A stretch of DNA of 51,952 nt from Rhodothermales bacterium (lineage in GTDB: Bacteria > Bacteroidota > Rhodothermia > Rhodothermales > UBA10348), in NCBI GenBank assembly GCA_028284865.1, contig JANQQV010000028.1, positions 1-51,952 of the forward strand, in the 5' to 3' direction. The notes under the pieces are model-generated. The model had not been told where the DNA came from. It was given only the letters and a program-made list of their open reading frames with translations, and searched no databases. A program made the position numbers and the translations under genes. Of the stretch, positions 3,780-16,304 are shown one piece after another; within the stretch, counting starts at the first letter, position 1, and every line of letters begins with the position of its first letter.

Positions 3780-4022
3780 ATGAGTCCCATCACTCTGCCA
3801 CAACCCCTGACATCGTTCATGAACGGCGTCGTGGTACAGTTGGCATTTATGTCGATGCTACCTGCGGAGGCAGCACGACTTCGGGATCTCGGTATCAGGG
3901 AAGGCAGTCGCGTCCAGATTCTGCGAAACCATGACTGCCTGGTTTGTGGCGTGGAAGCCAGTCGAGTTGTGCTCAGGAGGGAAGTCGCACAGAATGTGTT
4001 CGGCGTCCTGCAGCCTGCATGA
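3780..4022 (+). CDS. feoA: FeoA-domain protein, first copy
   Basis: Small cytosolic SH3-like FeoA protein (80 residues) that assists the FeoB ferrous iron channel. After a short leader, family features are present: MLPAEAARLRDLGIREGSRVQILRN (the LxxLGIxxG turn), CLVCGVEASRVVLRREVAQNVFGVL. It carries two cysteines (CLVC), which many FeoA proteins lack; whether they bind metal is unknown. Its TGA overlaps the start of the second feoA (ATGA at 4019-4022), indicating translational coupling. It is the first gene after the 3652-3672 palindrome. Confidence 0.85.
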   Translation: MSPITLPQPLTSFMNGVVVQLAFMSMLPAEAARLRDLGIREGSRVQILRNHDCLVCGVEASRVVLRREVAQNVFGVLQPA

Positions 4023-4240
4023 CACTGACTGATCTGAAACCGGGCGATCGGGCCCGCATCGTGGCCTGGTCCACGGACGTTCCACCTGCGCGCTTATTGG
4101 AGATGGGCATGCTGCCTGGATCCGAGATCGAGCTCGTGCGCTACGCCCCGCTCGGTGATCCGATTGATATCAAGGTTCGCGGATTTCACCTTTCGATTCG
4201 AAAGTCCGAGGCCAGCCTCGTTCAGGTCGATGTGATCTGA
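4019..4240 (+). CDS. feoA: FeoA-domain protein, second copy
   Basis: Second FeoA-type protein, 73 residues, beginning MTLTDLKPGDRARI. It has the canonical FeoA pattern: a strand leading to ARLLEMGMLPGSEIELVRYAPLGDPIDIKVRGFHLSIRKSEA, including the G-(D)PI-x-x-x-VRG strand. The open frame reaches upstream to 3944, but the family N-terminus and the ATGA overlap with the first feoA fix the start at 4019. Only 5 bp separate it from feoB. Tandem FeoA genes before FeoB are known; the two probably bind FeoB's cytosolic side as a pair. Confidence 0.9.
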   Translation: MTLTDLKPGDRARIVAWSTDVPPARLLEMGMLPGSEIELVRYAPLGDPIDIKVRGFHLSIRKSEASLVQVDVI

Positions 4241-4245
4241 TCTCC

Positions 4246-6486
4246 ATGGCAGATTCCGCAACCACAACACTCCGGCGCGTTGCCTTGATCGGCAACCCGA
4301 ATGTGGGAAAAACCACCCTCTTCAACCTCCTGACGGGTATGCGTCAGAAGGTGGGAAATTATCCGGGTGTCACGGTTGAGCGGAAAGTGGGTCGTCTCGA
4401 CGGCGATCCGCCGATCGAGATCATCGACCTCCCGGGATCATACAGTCTGAGCCCCAAGTCGGCTGACGAGCGTATCGCCTACGACGTGCTGATGGGTCAT
4501 CTGCCGGGCGAAGCCGTGCCTGATCTCGTCGTGTGTGTTGTGGATGCGTCCAACCTGGAGCGCAATCTCTACCTCGTCTCCCAGGTCATGGATACGGGTC
4601 TGCCGACCCTGGTGGCGCTGAACATGACCGACGCAGCCGAAGAGGCTGGCCTGAGTATCGACACAAAGAAGCTCGAGGAAGAGCTTGGCGTTCCGGTCAT
4701 TCCGATGGTGGCCTCGCGCAATGAAGGCGTTGGAAAGCTGAAGTACCGGATGCGCCAGCAAGAGCTTCCGCCAACAGCCGAGCGGCAGTGGGACATCATG
4801 CCTGTCGTGGATGAAGGGCTGCCCTATCTCGTCGACCTGCTCACAGAGCACGTTCATGAAGAGGGTCGGCGCATTGAAGTGCTGCAGTGTCTGACGAATG
4901 ACGCGATGCTCGCGTACTGGAAAGACCGGGCGCCCGCTTTCCATGCTGCGATTCTCGAAGAGCGCTCACGCCTTGAGGGTCTGAAAGCGCCCTACCAGCA
5001 GTCTGAAATCATGGGTCGCTACAACTGGATTTCCCCCGTTGTGGCTCGAGTGGTCAGCCGCAGTCGCGGAGACAGTGAACCCACGCTTTCCGATCGCATC
5101 GACGCCGTGCTGACCCATCGCGTGGCCGGGCCGGTTCTTTTTGGACTATTGCTGCTCCTGATCTTCCAGGCTGTCTTCACGTGGGCGACGCCCGCCATGG
5201 ATCTGATCGAAGCCGGTGTCGGAAATCTGGGTGATCTCGTCCGCGCGAACGCGCCGGCGAGCATGTTCACGGACCTTGTGGTTGATGGCGTGATCGCCGG
5301 AGTTGGCAACGTGGCGGTATTCCTGCCGCAGATCCTGCTCCTGTTTTTCTTCCTGGGCTTGATGGAGGACACGGGGTACATGGCCCGATCGGCCTTCATC
5401 ATGGACCGGATCATGAGCAAAGTGGGCCTCTCCGGCGGATCCGTGGTCCCGCTGCTGTCTTCGTTCGCCTGCGCCATCCCCGGCATCATGGCGGCTCGCA
5501 CGCTGGCCAATCCCCGTGATCGCCTCATCACGATCATGGTCGCCCCGTTGATGAGCTGCTCGGCGCGATTGCCCGTCTACACCCTCTTCATCGCCGCCTT
5601 TCTGCCGACTGGTGCCGTGCTGGGCATTTTCACCTGGCAAGGCGTGGCCATGTTCTCGATGTATCTGCTCGGCACGGTGATGGCGTTCGTGGCGGCCTTC
5701 GTACTACGTCGATTCGTCTTCACCAAAGGCGATTCGTCATTCTTCGCCATGGAATTGCCCCCGTACCGGATGCCGAGATTCCGTCAGATTTTCTGGCGAC
5801 TGATCGATCGCTCGAAGGCCTTCGTCGTCCGGGCCGGTAAAATCATCTTCGGGATGTCCATCATCCTCTGGGTGCTGGCCACATTCCCGCAGTCCGACGC
5901 ACCTGAGGCCATTGTGGCCGAACAGGCCGCTTTGTCGGAAGAGAAGGCGGAGCGTGTCGAGGGCCTGGTGAACGGAGGCGTTGTGCGTGCGGAGGCCGAA
6001 GCGCTGATCGAGAACGAGTTTACGGACGAAGCCCTGGCCATTGAGGCGCGTCTTGCGGCGTGGCAGGTCGAGCGTTCGTTCATCGGTCGCATGGGCAAAT
6101 TCATCGAGCCGGTCATGCAGCCGTTGGGCTTCGACTGGAAGATCTCGGCTGGAATCATCTCGGCTTTTGCCGCGCGCGAGGTCATCATTTCGGCGCTGGC
6201 CACGATCTACAGCGTCGGCGATGTCGAAGAGGATAGCCCGCTGTTGCGCGATCAGCTCAAGGCAGACACGTATGCGGACGGTTCGCCCGTCTACACACCG
6301 CTCGTGGCCGTGAGCTTGCTGGTCTTCTTCGTATTGGCGCTGCAGTGCATGAGCACCTTGGCCATCGCTCGTCGGGAGACCAACTCCTGGAAATGGCCCG
6401 CTGTCATGTGGCTCTACATGACCGGTTTGGCCTACCTCTTTTCCCTGGTGATCTATCAGGGCGGACAAGCGCTCGGGTGGGGTTGA
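4246..6486 (+). CDS. feoB: Ferrous iron transport protein B (GTPase-coupled channel)
   Basis: Inner-membrane ferrous iron importer, 746 residues. The N-terminal G domain shows G1 GNPNVGKTT (residues 16-24), a G2 Thr within NYPGVTVE, G3 DLPG (61-64) and G4 NMTD (126-129), then a helical GDI-like domain to about residue 275. The membrane part has two Gate motifs: SSFACAIPGIMAARTL...MSCSARLPVY with conserved cysteines, and ISAFAAREVIISALATIYSVG. An acidic, Ala/Glu-rich insert (about 560-615) lies between the two halves. Size and order match full-length FeoB. It is the last gene of the feoA-feoA-feoB operon and probably under iron control through the upstream palindrome. Confidence 0.97.
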   Translation: MADSATTTLRRVALIGNPNVGKTTLFNLLTGMRQKVGNYPGVTVERKVGRLDGDPPIEIIDLPGSYSLSPKSADERIAYDVLMGHLPGEAVPDLVVCVVDASNLERNLYLVSQVMDTGLPTLVALNMTDAAEEAGLSIDTKKLEEELGVPVIPMVASRNEGVGKLKYRMRQQELPPTAERQWDIMPVVDEGLPYLVDLLTEHVHEEGRRIEVLQCLTNDAMLAYWKDRAPAFHAAILEERSRLEGLKAPYQQSEIMGRYNWISPVVARVVSRSRGDSEPTLSDRIDAVLTHRVAGPVLFGLLLLLIFQAVFTWATPAMDLIEAGVGNLGDLVRANAPASMFTDLVVDGVIAGVGNVAVFLPQILLLFFFLGLMEDTGYMARSAFIMDRIMSKVGLSGGSVVPLLSSFACAIPGIMAARTLANPRDRLITIMVAPLMSCSARLPVYTLFIAAFLPTGAVLGIFTWQGVAMFSMYLLGTVMAFVAAFVLRRFVFTKGDSSFFAMELPPYRMPRFRQIFWRLIDRSKAFVVRAGKIIFGMSIILWVLATFPQSDAPEAIVAEQAALSEEKAERVEGLVNGGVVRAEAEALIENEFTDEALAIEARLAAWQVERSFIGRMGKFIEPVMQPLGFDWKISAGIISAFAAREVIISALATIYSVGDVEEDSPLLRDQLKADTYADGSPVYTPLVAVSLLVFFVLALQCMSTLAIARRETNSWKWPAVMWLYMTGLAYLFSLVIYQGGQALGWG

Positions 6487-7101: not shown

Positions 7102-8772
7102 TCAATCGAATTTCCATCGTAGCTGGGCGCCCAGCCGGACGAGATCATCCTGCAGCGCTTTGACGCGATCAGGCGATCCGTGAATGGCGGGGGGTAATTC
7201 TCCCGTCAGCTTGCACTGGGCAGCCAAGGCGCCCGCGGCCTCCCCAATACTCCATTCCACCGGGTGCAGTCGGAAGCATCCGTTGGTGACGTGGGTGGTG
7301 CCGATGTTTTTGGCCGCCGCGATCAGGTTGTCGATCCGAATGGGAATGAGACTCCCCAGCGGTATCTCGAATGGAAGCGCCGCAACGTCGATGTAGTTGT
7401 CGCCTGACGTGGACGGATGCAGATCAATTCGGTAGTGGCCAACGCCCACGCTGTCCGGGAATTGCTCGGCTTGAGTCAGGCCCACACTGGCACGCGCTTC
7501 CTCGCCGACGTGGTGTTCATGGACGGTGGTGCGGGCGCGGATGCGCCGGGCCTCGCGGATGTAGGGCGCCATCGCCAGTCCGTCCGCTGTACCAAGAATG
7601 TCCGGCATCGGAAACAGGCCCGGCCATCCGCGCCCGCCATCCGGTCGTTCCACTTCCATTCGGAGCCAATGGATCAGGCTTCGGGTCAGCTCTTTGGAAG
7701 CTTCTTCGTGGGTGATCCGTTCGGCCTCAGTCACATCGATCAGTCGCCCATCCAGGTAGTCATTCTGAGGCCAGTTCAGCAGGGTAACTCCGCCGTTGAC
7801 CGGCCAAGTCCGCCCCGCCTCCTGAAGTCTTCGATAGACCCACAGATTGAATCGCTCCGTCTGGGCACGAGGCGTCGGATCGAAATCGAGCCGGCGTGGC
7901 TCCAGCGAGATCGGATTGGAATAGCTCAGGTCCAGCAATTTACCCGGCCAAGCCGGCTGCAGTGCCGGGACATAGTCGCGCCAGTAGGTATAGGAGTCCG
8001 GTGGTTCGAGAAGCGCTTCGTCGACACCACCCGGTGTGCCCAGCTGGTCGGGTGAAAAAGCCGGATCAAATCCGATGGCAGCGCACCACGTGAACGCCTG
8101 CTCGTTTGCCGGATCAGCTTCCTCGGTAGCATGCGGTTCGCCATATGCAGCCTGCCCCTCGCTACCCGTCACGTACTCCGCACCTGTCAGCGGGAGGAGG
8201 TCCCCACGCTCGGTGGCATCGATGAAGACGGGCGCTTCGATGACGAAGCTCGTTCCATCGAGCAGTGAGCGCATCTGAACGGCGTCGATGTGGTCGCGGT
8301 GGCCGCTTGCTATTTCCGGCACACAATTCGGAATGAACTGGATGCGACCATCGTGTTCGCCCAACATTTCCAGAAGTACCTGGGTGGCGACGGAAGGCGC
8401 ATGGCAAATGCGGGAAACGCCACACGCGCCCGGATTGAACGCCGTAAAGCCGGACTGCCACGCTTGGCCATAGCGTTGTCGCACGCGATGCCGGAAGTCG
8501 CCATAGGAAAACGGAGCCCCCTGCTCTTCAATCCACTGGTGTTCATCCGGAGGGACACCTTGCGATGTGAGCTGGCCGCCAGGAATGGGCATTTCCTCCG
8601 TCAGGATCACGTTTAATCCCCGGACAGCCGCGGCCAGAGCAGCAACGACTCCTCCGGTAGACGCTCCGATAATGGCGACATCCGCTTTGTGTCCGCTGGA
8701 ACACCCGGTAAGCCACAACGGGCTTGCCAGCGCAGCCAGTGCCGATGTCTGCAGGAAATGTCGTCGCCTCAT
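7102..8772 (-). CDS. FAD-dependent oxidoreductase, Tat-exported lipoprotein
   Basis: Flavin-dependent oxidoreductase of the FAD_oxidored type, 556 residues. The N-terminus has a twin-arginine signal (MRRRHFLQTSALAALASPLW) ending in a lipobox LTGC, so it is probably exported folded with its cofactor and lipid-anchored. A Rossmann FAD-binding segment follows (VAIIGASTGGVVAALAAA, then an acidic residue after the second strand). FIDATERGDLLPLTGAEY and the late LIAAAKNIGTTHVTNGCFRLHPVEWSIGEAAGALAA match the family's FAD-binding ends. Substrate is unknown; relatives occur in polysaccharide or xenobiotic catabolism. It is divergent from the R2lox fusion gene (73 bp apart) and upstream of the Spy-like gene. 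Confidence 0.85.
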   Translation of the reverse strand: MRRRHFLQTSALAALASPLWLTGCSSGHKADVAIIGASTGGVVAALAAAVRGLNVILTEEMPIPGGQLTSQGVPPDEHQWIEEQGAPFSYGDFRHRVRQRYGQAWQSGFTAFNPGACGVSRICHAPSVATQVLLEMLGEHDGRIQFIPNCVPEIASGHRDHIDAVQMRSLLDGTSFVIEAPVFIDATERGDLLPLTGAEYVTGSEGQAAYGEPHATEEADPANEQAFTWCAAIGFDPAFSPDQLGTPGGVDEALLEPPDSYTYWRDYVPALQPAWPGKLLDLSYSNPISLEPRRLDFDPTPRAQTERFNLWVYRRLQEAGRTWPVNGGVTLLNWPQNDYLDGRLIDVTEAERITHEEASKELTRSLIHWLRMEVERPDGGRGWPGLFPMPDILGTADGLAMAPYIREARRIRARTTVHEHHVGEEARASVGLTQAEQFPDSVGVGHYRIDLHPSTSGDNYIDVAALPFEIPLGSLIPIRIDNLIAAAKNIGTTHVTNGCFRLHPVEWSIGEAAGALAAQCKLTGELPPAIHGSPDRVKALQDDLVRLGAQLRWKFD

Positions 8773-8845: not shown

Positions 8846-10126
8846 ATGGACCGATTCACACCGACCTGGGCGAATGCCTGGGCAACCGAGCTCAGCCAAG
8901 ATACCGAGTGGGCTGCTTCCTCAACCAATTGGAAGTGGAGCGTACTCGTCAAAGTGAACGATCACTCCTCGTGGTTGCTGGACCTGTACAAAGGCGAATG
9001 CCGATCGATTACTCAGGATTCCGGAAATGGCTCTGCGGACTTTGTTTTGGCAGCAGGGGTAGATGTTTGGAGTCGCATTCTGGACGGTGACCAGTCGCCC
9101 ATGGTAGCCATCATGCAGGGGGCCGTTCGCCTGGAAAAGGGGTCCATCCTTACGCTCGGACGATTCTCGAAGTCGGCAACACTGATGCTGGAAGCGGCCA
9201 TCCGCGCAGAAGGCGGAACGGTTGAATCTGCACCGCCGTCGGTGTCTGCAGGCGGAGACGGCGCCGTGGCATCCGATCATCATGTTTCGTTCCGGACGAC
9301 TTCTGGCAGTGGGTTGAATCATGATTCCCTGCCGATGCAGCTATATCACAAGGCCAAGCGCCTTGGTATCTGGGATCCACGGGATCTGGACATGTCGAGC
9401 GATCGCGGGCACTGGGTGGCCCTCGCATCGGAAGAGCGTGATGTGCTCACCCGTCTGCTGGCCATGTTTCAGGCTGGTGAAGAGGCGGTTACCCTTGATT
9501 TGCTACCGCTCATGCGCGCTCTCGCGCTCGATGGCAGGTTGGAAGAGGAGATTTACCTGACCACTTTCCTGTTCGAGGAGGCCAAGCACGTTGAGTTCTT
9601 CCAGCGCATCTTCTCCGAGGTGGTTCAGGTGGATGAAGATCTTTCACACTACCACACGGCCTCGTACAAGGAGCTGTTTTACGAGAAGCTACCCGAAGCG
9701 CTCAATCGCTTGGATACCGATGCTTCGCCCGAAGCCTTGATCGCGGCCTCCGTTACGTACAACATGGTCGTGGAAGGTACGCTTGCGGAGACGGGCTATC
9801 AGGCGTTCTACACCGTGCTCGAGGAGCGCAGCATCATGCCGGGGGTAACAGAAGGAATCCGCTTGTTGCAGCGTGATGAGTCCCGTCACATTGCGTTCGG
9901 TGTTCATCTGATCAGACGATTGATAGAAGAGAACCCACCCCTGATGGGCGTTTTCCAGTCAAGAATGGCAGAACTGATGCCGCTGGCGATGGCGTCCATC
10001 ACGGAGTTGTTCGCCTGCTACGATCCGATGCCTTTCGGACTGAAAGAGGAGGACTTCGTGCAGTTTGCGATGGACCAGTTCGGCAAACGCATGCGGCGGA
10101 TCGAGCAGGGCATGGGTGTTTCGTAA
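8846..10126 (+). CDS. SCP2 lipid-carrier domain fused to R2-like ligand-binding oxidase (R2lox)
   Basis: Two-domain protein of 426 residues. Residues about 5-118 resemble an SCP2-type lipid-binding domain (WANAWATELS...; MQGAVRLEKGSILTLGRF). A Gly/Ser/Ala linker (about 122-158) leads to an R2-like ligand-binding oxidase domain (about 160-426; KAKRLGIWDPRDLDMSSDR). All expected metal ligands are present: Glu212, Glu245, His248, Glu310, Glu345, His348, as is the Val215/Tyr305 pair that forms the ether crosslink in R2lox. Recalled numbering of the Geobacillus enzyme (E69, V72, E102, H105, Y162, E167, E202, H205) fits with a constant offset of 143, so the core aligns without gaps. R2lox proteins hold a Mn/Fe cofactor and a bound long-chain fatty acid; their reaction is unknown. 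The fusion suggests lipid delivery to the oxidase. No signal peptide, so cytosolic. Confidence 0.93.
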   Translation: MDRFTPTWANAWATELSQDTEWAASSTNWKWSVLVKVNDHSSWLLDLYKGECRSITQDSGNGSADFVLAAGVDVWSRILDGDQSPMVAIMQGAVRLEKGSILTLGRFSKSATLMLEAAIRAEGGTVESAPPSVSAGGDGAVASDHHVSFRTTSGSGLNHDSLPMQLYHKAKRLGIWDPRDLDMSSDRGHWVALASEERDVLTRLLAMFQAGEEAVTLDLLPLMRALALDGRLEEEIYLTTFLFEEAKHVEFFQRIFSEVVQVDEDLSHYHTASYKELFYEKLPEALNRLDTDASPEALIAASVTYNMVVEGTLAETGYQAFYTVLEERSIMPGVTEGIRLLQRDESRHIAFGVHLIRRLIEENPPLMGVFQSRMAELMPLAMASITELFACYDPMPFGLKEEDFVQFAMDQFGKRMRRIEQGMGVS

Positions 10127-14309: not shown

Positions 14310-16211
14310 TCAGACTACGCCTTCGTACATCGACTCGATCAGCTCGCCGTAGTTGGCTTCGATCGCTTTGCGCTTGAGCTTCATCGTCGGCGTCATCATG
14401 CCGTTCTCGATCGAGAATGGCTCGAGCACCAGCCGGAAGCCGCGAATCTTTTCGTGGGCTGCTGCCGTGCGTGAATAGGAACGGAACAGCTGGTCGAAGA
14501 CGCGCTGAACATCGTCTGTCGCCAGGATGTCTCCCAGCTTGGAAGCCTCAAGGTTCTGCTCTTTGGCGTAGCTGCGGATCACTTCTTCGTCCGGAACGAC
14601 GAGGGCCGTCAAGTACTCGCGCGCTTCGCCAATGACCATGATCTGATCGATCCATGGTTCGTGCTTGAAGCCTTCTTCGATCGGGCCTGGGTAAATGTTC
14701 TTTCCACCGGCAGAGACCAGCATATGCTTGATGCGGTCGGTGATCATCAGGAATCCGTTGTCAAAACGCCCCACATCTCCCGTGTGATACCATCCGTCTG
14801 CGTCGATGGCATCGGCTGTCGCTTCCGGATTATTCCAGTAGCCTTTCATGATGTTGGGACCCTTGGCCAGGATCTCCCCGCTTTCGGTCGTGAGTGAGCT
14901 GGGATAATCATCCCCGCTCTGGATGCCGAGCATTTCGCCCGAATCCGGATTCTGGATGGCCACCTGGACACCTGGAATGATGTGGCCAACCTTGCCGTAC
15001 TGCGGGTCATCGAACGGCGAGATCGAAAGCACGGGTGCTGTCTCGGTCAGGCCGTACCCTTCCACAATGGGAATACCTGCCGAGAAGAAGAATTCGCCGA
15101 TGGCCTTCGGAAGCGCTGCGCCACCTGAAACCCCGAATTCAATGTGCCCGCCCAGCTTTTCATGGAGCTTCGAGAATACCAGCTTGAAGGCCAGCTTGTA
15201 CTGACCCGCCAGGATGGGATTGATACTTTCGCCGCGAGCCTTCTTCAGATTATATCTGAAACCGACGCTCTGGGCCCATTCAAAGATCTTTTTCTTGGCA
15301 CCGCCACCCTCCTCGACGGACTTGCTGACCGCGTTGAAGATTTTCTCGTACAGGCGGGGTACAGACAGCAGGACGGTGGGCTTGACGTCCAGGATGTCCC
15401 GCGTCACGGTGTCAATGCTGCGGGCATAGGAAATGGTCATTCCGCTGGCCAGCGTGCCCAGGTATCCTCCCAGACGCTCGAACGAATGACAAAGCGGAAG
15501 GAAGGACAAATGGCGACCACCCTCGCGCAAGCGCAACCGCTGGAGTGAGGCTTTCAGGTTCTCACAAAGGTTTGAATGCGACAGCATGACGCCCTTTGGA
15601 TTGCCCGTTGTGCCGGACGTGTAGATCAGCACGGAAAGGTCGTCCGGCTTCACGGCACGTTCGTTGGCGCGGATGGCATCCTCATACTCCTCGTAGAACT
15701 CAAAGCCGCTGTCCATGGCCTCATCGAACACATCGACGTGATCCGCATCCTCGACATCATCCGGGACTTCGACCATCGAGACGATCTTCTTCAGATCCGG
15801 ACACAGGTCATAGATCTGCAGGGCCTTGCGCAGCTGGATGCGCGTCGAGACCACGAATACGGACGCTCCCGAATCGTGCACGATGTAGCTGACTTCCTTC
15901 GGCGGCAGCGTCGTATAGAGCGAAACATTGACAGCTCCGAGCAGCTGGGTTGCCATGTCGGCATAGGCCCATTCAGGCCGGTTCTCCGAGAGGATGGCCA
16001 CACGGTCACCAGGACGAACGCCCTGGGCATACAGGTAACCCGCCATGGCGCGCGCCTTGTCCCGGAATTCCGGCCAGGTTACGTCCACCCATTCAGAGGA
16101 GTCCTTGTCAACGTACCTGAGCACAGTCTGGTTTTTCCCCTGGTGGTAATCCACCAGACGATTGAAGAGCTGAGGTACAGTATTGAAGTCAACGAGCGAG
16201 TTATTCGACAT
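14310..16211 (-). CDS. Long-chain acyl-CoA synthetase (AMP-forming)
   Basis: Cytosolic or membrane-associated fatty-acid:CoA ligase of the FadD/FAA1 type, about 633 residues, activating fatty acids through acyl-AMP. Motifs in order: P-loop-like YTSGTTGNPKGVMLSH, LSFLPLCHSFER, EGYGLTETAPVLS, GWYHTGDVGRFDNGFLMITDRIKHMLVSAGGKNIYP, and a C-terminal PTMKLKRKAIEANY with the catalytic Lys region. The length and the middle insert (GGGAKKKIFEWA) match the long, eukaryote-like FAA1 subgroup. ATG 16211 (MSNNSLVDF) is preferred over the in-frame TTG at 16220. It is divergent from the MarR gene with 131 bp between, so the operator in that gap could affect both. Confidence 0.93.
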   Translation of the reverse strand: MSNNSLVDFNTVPQLFNRLVDYHQGKNQTVLRYVDKDSSEWVDVTWPEFRDKARAMAGYLYAQGVRPGDRVAILSENRPEWAYADMATQLLGAVNVSLYTTLPPKEVSYIVHDSGASVFVVSTRIQLRKALQIYDLCPDLKKIVSMVEVPDDVEDADHVDVFDEAMDSGFEFYEEYEDAIRANERAVKPDDLSVLIYTSGTTGNPKGVMLSHSNLCENLKASLQRLRLREGGRHLSFLPLCHSFERLGGYLGTLASGMTISYARSIDTVTRDILDVKPTVLLSVPRLYEKIFNAVSKSVEEGGGAKKKIFEWAQSVGFRYNLKKARGESINPILAGQYKLAFKLVFSKLHEKLGGHIEFGVSGGAALPKAIGEFFFSAGIPIVEGYGLTETAPVLSISPFDDPQYGKVGHIIPGVQVAIQNPDSGEMLGIQSGDDYPSSLTTESGEILAKGPNIMKGYWNNPEATADAIDADGWYHTGDVGRFDNGFLMITDRIKHMLVSAGGKNIYPGPIEEGFKHEPWIDQIMVIGEAREYLTALVVPDEEVIRSYAKEQNLEASKLGDILATDDVQRVFDQLFRSYSRTAAAHEKIRGFRLVLEPFSIENGMMTPTMKLKRKAIEANYGELIESMYEGVV

Positions 16212-16304
16212 GATGAACAACCAGAGTGGTGGACGACAGGTGGGGCTGCGGGTTGAGCATAGACTATCAGAACGATCGAAGCGCTTCCGGGTTGCCGCAG
16301 GGAC

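Follow-up and report, generated by a model that had tools for sequence, protein, structure and literature searches.

The gene described here, from a Rhodothermales bacterium, encodes an SCP2 lipid-carrier domain joined in a single chain to an R2-like ligand-binding oxidase (R2lox). The finding stands as a broader one than first noted, since this protein is the covalent form of an SCP2-R2lox partnership that recurs in many lineages, and whose function we infer. R2lox proteins are a well-studied group of Mn/Fe enzymes, but their role was long unknown, their natural substrate is disputed and functional support is thin. A carrier fused to, or encoded beside, R2lox in many lineages provides a direct handle on the function of these enzymes. 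If the reading proposed below is true, the protein would combine a lipid oxygenase with a delivery domain of its own, resembling SCPx in its logic.

The fusion gene and its two domains

The window, i.e. the whole stretch of 51,952 nucleotides that was analysed, contains an in-frame open reading frame of 426 codons, without an internal stop. Its parts and two neighbouring genes are as follows.

8846..10126, + strand: SCP2-R2lox fusion gene, 426 aa, start ATG, stop TAA, with orthologues of identical architecture
8846..9217, + strand: SCP2 domain, residues 1-124, TT1886-like subfamily, the sole PF02036 match in the genome
9218..9280, + strand: linker, residues 125-145, from the alignment of fused relatives and the predicted structure
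9281..10111, + strand: R2lox domain, residues 146-422, from profile, PDB sequence match and fold
9479..9889, + strand: span with the metal ligands E212, E245, H248, E310, E345 and H348, the cross-link pair V215/Y305 and the tunnel alanine A314
7105..8772, - strand: FAD-dependent oxidoreductase (PF12831), divergent neighbour
14313-16220, - strand: gene of long-chain acyl-CoA synthetase type (PF00501)

Both domains proposed in the initial annotation were recovered, with boundaries (5-118 for SCP2 and 160-426 for R2lox) that proved slightly narrow and are better set at about 1-124 and 144-424. The N-terminal part matches SCP2 above the curated Pfam gathering cut-off (PF02036, residues 32-97, E 6.9e-5, 23.6 bits versus 21.3), and the C-terminal part matches R2lox above the NCBIfam cut-off (NF006202, R2-like ligand-binding oxidase, residues 146-422, 7.7e-120, 399.6 bits versus 315). 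In PDB sequence searches, Thermus TT1886 (1wfr, 2cx7) matched residues 1-121 with E of about 1e-14, and MtR2lox (3ee4) matched residues 144-420. Pfam also assigned a domain of the ribonucleotide-reductase (RNR) small-chain type to residues 174-407; curated profiles did not identify the protein as RNR R2 (NrdB/NrdF), the best RNR equivalog reaching 57.3 bits against a cut-off of 309. A chance match to SCP2 is ruled out by the PDB match, the fold and the conservation of the domain. An assembly or frameshift artefact is likewise ruled out by the occurrence of the fusion, in frame, in 23 genes, covering 6/6 same-genus genomes, other families and one other phylum.

Judged by its residues, the active site of the R2lox domain is intact. 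The six metal ligands named initially (Glu212, Glu245, His248, Glu310, Glu345 and His348) and the Val215/Tyr305 cross-link pair are all present as described, and all eight positions are invariant in an alignment of relatives, 22 of them fused and 22 unfused. Each is numbered 143 higher than its counterpart in GkR2loxI, the counterparts being E69, E102, H105, E167, E202, H205, V72 and Y162, as listed in PMC10867098. The same offset equates A314 of the fusion with Gk A171, so that the tunnel alanine characteristic of R2lox is found here. A171 is conserved in R2lox and lines the fatty-acid tunnel, whereas RNR R2 has phenylalanine at this position, and R2lox of other species were shown to hold, in such a tunnel, a long-chain fatty acid that reaches the metals (PMC6399176).

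In the predicted structure of the fusion (mean pLDDT 92.4, pTM 0.88), the R2lox domain superposes on 3ee4 at 1.3 A over 280 residues (Z 38.6), and the SCP2 domain on 2cx7 at 1.5 A (TM 0.87, by target length). The linker is unconserved; in fused relatives the final helix of SCP2 and the beginning of R2lox are 27-60 residues apart, and in the model pLDDT is low at about residues 132-137. A model of the fused protein from Chloroflexota gave pLDDT 91.5 and pTM 0.85. For two domains on a loose linker, pTM values of 0.88 and 0.85 suggest that the placing is predicted with some confidence, and that SCP2 and R2lox may adopt a defined relative position in the fusions of two phyla.

The fusion shares with the solved R2lox proteins (MtR2lox 3ee4, GkR2loxI 4hr0) a common fold, the six metal ligands, the Val/Tyr pair and the tunnel alanine, at about 40-44% identity in structural alignment; what it adds is the N-terminal SCP2 domain, which none of the matched solved R2lox chains has. 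The whole of that domain aligns with Thermus TT1886 (28% identity, 1.3-1.5 A to 2cx7), but TT1886 is a stand-alone protein, while the SCP2 of the fusion is tethered to an oxidase.

Distribution of fused and linked pairs

A combined profile search followed by domain mapping gave 127 distinct R2lox, 23 of them fused to SCP2. A further 11 non-fused R2lox have an SCP2 within 1.8 kb (immediately next to R2lox in 7, and 1.3-1.8 kb upstream of it in 4), SCP2 and R2lox always lying on the same strand. Co-occurrence of the two domains, for which the initial annotation had proposed a survey, is borne out. No SCP2 was present in the examined flanking stretch of 93/127 R2lox; these flanks differ in length (about 1.5 or 6 kb), so that the counts of linked pairs are lower bounds.

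The 23 distinct fused genes come from Rhodothermales, from two other families in its class and from one member of Chloroflexota (G1292). All six same-genus relatives searched carry the fusion, as does G016 of the same family, in which Cas3- and Cas6-like genes lie directly upstream of the fused gene (L037, 598-5586, - strand). G023, of the same family, shows R2lox remnants in two frames (L023, 1247-1716, + strand), apparently decayed or mis-sequenced. The source genome, which its closest named relatives place in Rhodothermales, contains one R2lox and, by PF02036, one SCP2, the fused one, which is the only SCP2 in the same-genus relatives as well.

Unfused SCP2 genes adjacent to or upstream of R2lox were found in Acidobacteriota (G101, G354, G116), Marinisomatota (G100, G468) and Bacteroidota (G863). 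Where a separate SCP2 gene immediately precedes R2lox, as it does in Acidobacteriota, Marinisomatota and another Bacteroidota genome, the gap between domain edges is 26-65 bp, and in a Marinisomatota copy the stop and start codons of the two genes overlap as TGATG. In the Bacillota genome G108 a weak SCP2 match (31 bits) comes after a divergent R2lox.

In a Bacteroidota draw of 394 genomes, R2lox is fused or adjacent to SCP2 in 19 of the 23 genomes with a strong R2lox; in Chloroflexota, one of about 37 R2lox is linked to SCP2, and the Pseudomonadota sample held one R2lox, with no SCP2 linkage. Among 100 relatives, SCP2 occurred anywhere in the genome in 18/20 of those with R2lox versus 35/80 of the others (Fisher p 2.7e-4, kinship not corrected).

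Gene context in the window and in relatives

The window's own neighbours are uninformative on the function of the fusion. An ADH/ALDH operon of the kind found in the alkane-metabolism cluster of GkR2loxI was not found around the gene. The FAD-dependent oxidoreductase is divergent and keeps its place next to the fusion in the genus but not outside it, and we do not claim it as an electron-transfer partner. The acyl-CoA synthetase gene, 4 kb downstream on the opposite strand, is near the fusion in five same-genus loci, which represents conserved synteny within the genus. At 3780-6486 (+ strand), 2.4 kb upstream of the fusion, lie FeoA-like open reading frames and a gene for a FeoB-like ferrous iron transporter; a FeoB-like gene is near the fusion in most same-genus genomes, and these genes possibly supply it with iron or reflect mere synteny. 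Most fused Rhodothermia loci have housekeeping neighbours, not alkane genes, the ADH/ALDH cluster having been seen in only part of the R2lox family. In one genome, G1128, lycopene cyclase and TspO genes lie near the fusion gene (L224, 4539-6193, - strand), the sole hint of an isoprenoid context.

Other arrangements were seen where the two genes are separate. Three genomes (G646, G607, G735), placed in the phylum of Thermoactinomyces vulgaris and hence in Bacillota, have an operon of TetR, SCP2, Zn alcohol dehydrogenase, R2lox and aldehyde dehydrogenase genes, which share one strand and in part overlap. On the plasmid pROB01 of Rhodococcus opacus B4 (L234, 3804-10828, + strand) the order is alcohol dehydrogenase, R2lox, FAD reductase, ferredoxin, aldehyde dehydrogenase, SCP2 and fatty acid-CoA ligase, likely a complete pathway of oxidation, electron donors included. 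This type of cluster appears again in R. opacus 9 and, with other genes interspersed, in R. oxybenzonivorans and in Rhodococcus BH4 and ZPP, followed in the latter two by permease and MCE genes. Mycobacterial plasmids carry TetR, R2lox, a 136-aa protein, acyl-CoA ligase and alcohol dehydrogenase, the 136-aa protein giving a sub-threshold SCP2 match (18.8 versus 21.3 bits). The SCP2s of the actinobacterial clusters were not detected by a TT1886-like profile, which indicates that a different SCP2 subfamily was recruited there.

In the haloarchaeon Natronococcus sp. AD-5, three TT1886-like open reading frames are located just upstream of a divergent R2lox; on this unannotated plasmid (L232, 1889-5392), two of the three SCP2-like frames are stretched by insertions of about 75 residues. 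Other haloarchaeal R2lox belong to clusters of fatty-acid-synthase-like or beta-oxidation genes that lack SCP2. Genes for wax-ester synthase, Fe-ADH and acyltransferase adjoin stand-alone relatives of the fused SCP2.

A proposed carrier for the oxidase

That SCP2 and R2lox are fused or encoded side by side in one archaeon and in numerous unrelated bacteria, often in the company of genes that process alcohols and aldehydes, points to oxidation of a lipid or hydrocarbon delivered by the carrier. SCP2 proteins carry lipids, and the joining of SCP2 to a lipid-metabolising enzyme has a precedent in SCPx, a thiolase combined with SCP2 (PMC9602805); SCPx differs in being eukaryotic, in its unrelated enzyme domain and in the C-terminal position of its SCP2. 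The statement of the initial annotation that the R2lox substrate is unknown is dated, as GkR2loxI of Geobacillus kaustophilus was reported in 2024 to be an alkane monooxygenase/hydroxylase (PMC10867098). That activity is weak: it was reported for crude lysate, and a double mutant in the metal ligands lost only 11-21 percentage points (PMC10867098). Like the clusters described above, that of GkR2loxI unites R2lox and genes for alcohol dehydrogenase, aldehyde dehydrogenase and acyl-CoA ligase, but PMC10867098 names no SCP2 there. Taken together, the carrier role of SCP2, the SCPx precedent, the fatty-acid tunnel of R2lox and the reported attack on alkanes make a carrier that feeds or clears the tunnel the simplest account. 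The best reading is that SCP2 acts as a tethered carrier by which a long-chain lipid or hydrocarbon is loaded into (or cleared from) the tunnel of R2lox.

We consider it rather probable that the fusion works as a soluble hydroxylase of lipids or hydrocarbons that brings along a carrier, with SCP2 supplying the R2lox tunnel. The SCP2 domain would take a long-chain hydrophobic compound (an alkane, fatty alcohol, fatty acid or similar) from the membrane or cytosol and pass it into the hydrophobic tunnel of the tethered R2lox domain. There the Mn/Fe (or Fe/Fe) site, after activation of O2 and receipt of two external electrons, would insert oxygen, and the product could proceed via alcohol dehydrogenase, aldehyde dehydrogenase and acyl-CoA ligase. 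The lipid transfer step and its direction, the substrate class and turnover by the enzyme are what we infer in this scheme. In its favour are the 23 fusions and 11 close pairs, the nearly touching junctions, the Bacillota, Rhodococcus, mycobacterial and haloarchaeal clusters, the lack of any second SCP2 in this genus, the neighbours of the stand-alone SCP2 relatives and the pTM values of the two models. Counting against it, 93/127 R2lox have no SCP2 in the flanks examined, among them nearly all those of Chloroflexota, and most fused Rhodothermia loci lie among the housekeeping genes mentioned above; so do the partial distribution of the ADH/ALDH cluster and the weakness of the alkane activity reported from lysate.

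The initial suggestion that SCP2 serves R2lox with a lipid substrate is upheld as regards the partnership, which is supported by repeated fusion and adjacency across phyla; these arrangements would also fit removal of a product, or docking to a membrane, instead of a hand-over of substrate. Traffic in the opposite direction, with SCP2 withdrawing the oxidised product (a hydroxy-lipid or fatty alcohol) from R2lox and passing it on to the membrane or the following enzyme, would agree with the Bacillota operon, in which SCP2 and R2lox flank an alcohol dehydrogenase, with the Rhodococcus SCP2 gene lying between those for ALDH and acyl-CoA ligase, and with the Fe-ADH genes directly after stand-alone SCP2 relatives. 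We regard it as unlikely, for in the fusion the partner of SCP2 is the oxidase itself and not a dehydrogenase.

The high pTM, suggestive of fixed docking of the domains, could instead speak for SCP2 as a lipid sensor, a membrane anchor or a dimer-stabilising module, whose part would be to regulate or position R2lox without any exchange of lipid between the domains. Free SCP2 genes of two subfamilies beside R2lox in several phyla are what one would expect of a carrier rather than of a structural clamp, and we hold such a module to be quite improbable. As to the compound itself, sterols are among the many lipids that SCP2 proteins bind (PMC9602805), and the lycopene cyclase and TspO genes near the G1128 fusion could hint at an isoprenoid, hopanoid or carotenoid in place of a straight-chain alkane or fatty acid. 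This is a single locus, set against other clusters that contain ALDH, acyl-CoA ligase, beta-oxidation or fatty-acid-synthase genes, and such a substrate seems very improbable to us.

Origin of the pair and earlier records

In a tree of SCP2 domains, 22/23 fused ones cluster together, including that of Chloroflexota. The R2lox tree requires about four changes for the fused rows, yet a single clade of fused R2lox is not rejected (AU p 0.333); linked-but-separate pairs are scattered. Either an old gene pair underwent one or a few fusions, or the two genes were brought together repeatedly, and the presence of two SCP2 subfamilies beside R2lox favours at least two assemblies. More tentatively, it is quite possible that SCP2-R2lox constitutes a recurrent two-part lipid oxygenase system of Bacteria and Archaea, in which a carrier loads a Mn/Fe hydroxylase, and which arose on more than one occasion, with SCP2s of different subfamilies, and became fused in Rhodothermia and a Chloroflexota member, the R2lox family oxidising carrier-borne lipids or hydrocarbons.

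A literature search for R2lox with SCP2 or a sterol carrier, or for an SCP-2/ribonucleotide-reductase fusion, turned up no publication; most subscription journals were outside its reach, and an earlier description is possible. Individual database records already annotate SCP2 and R2lox separately.

A separate matter is some acidobacterial R2lox-like genes (L096, L098, L099, L100) in open frames of 717-765 residues, which may have another kind of long N-terminal extension or may merely be long stop-to-stop frames.
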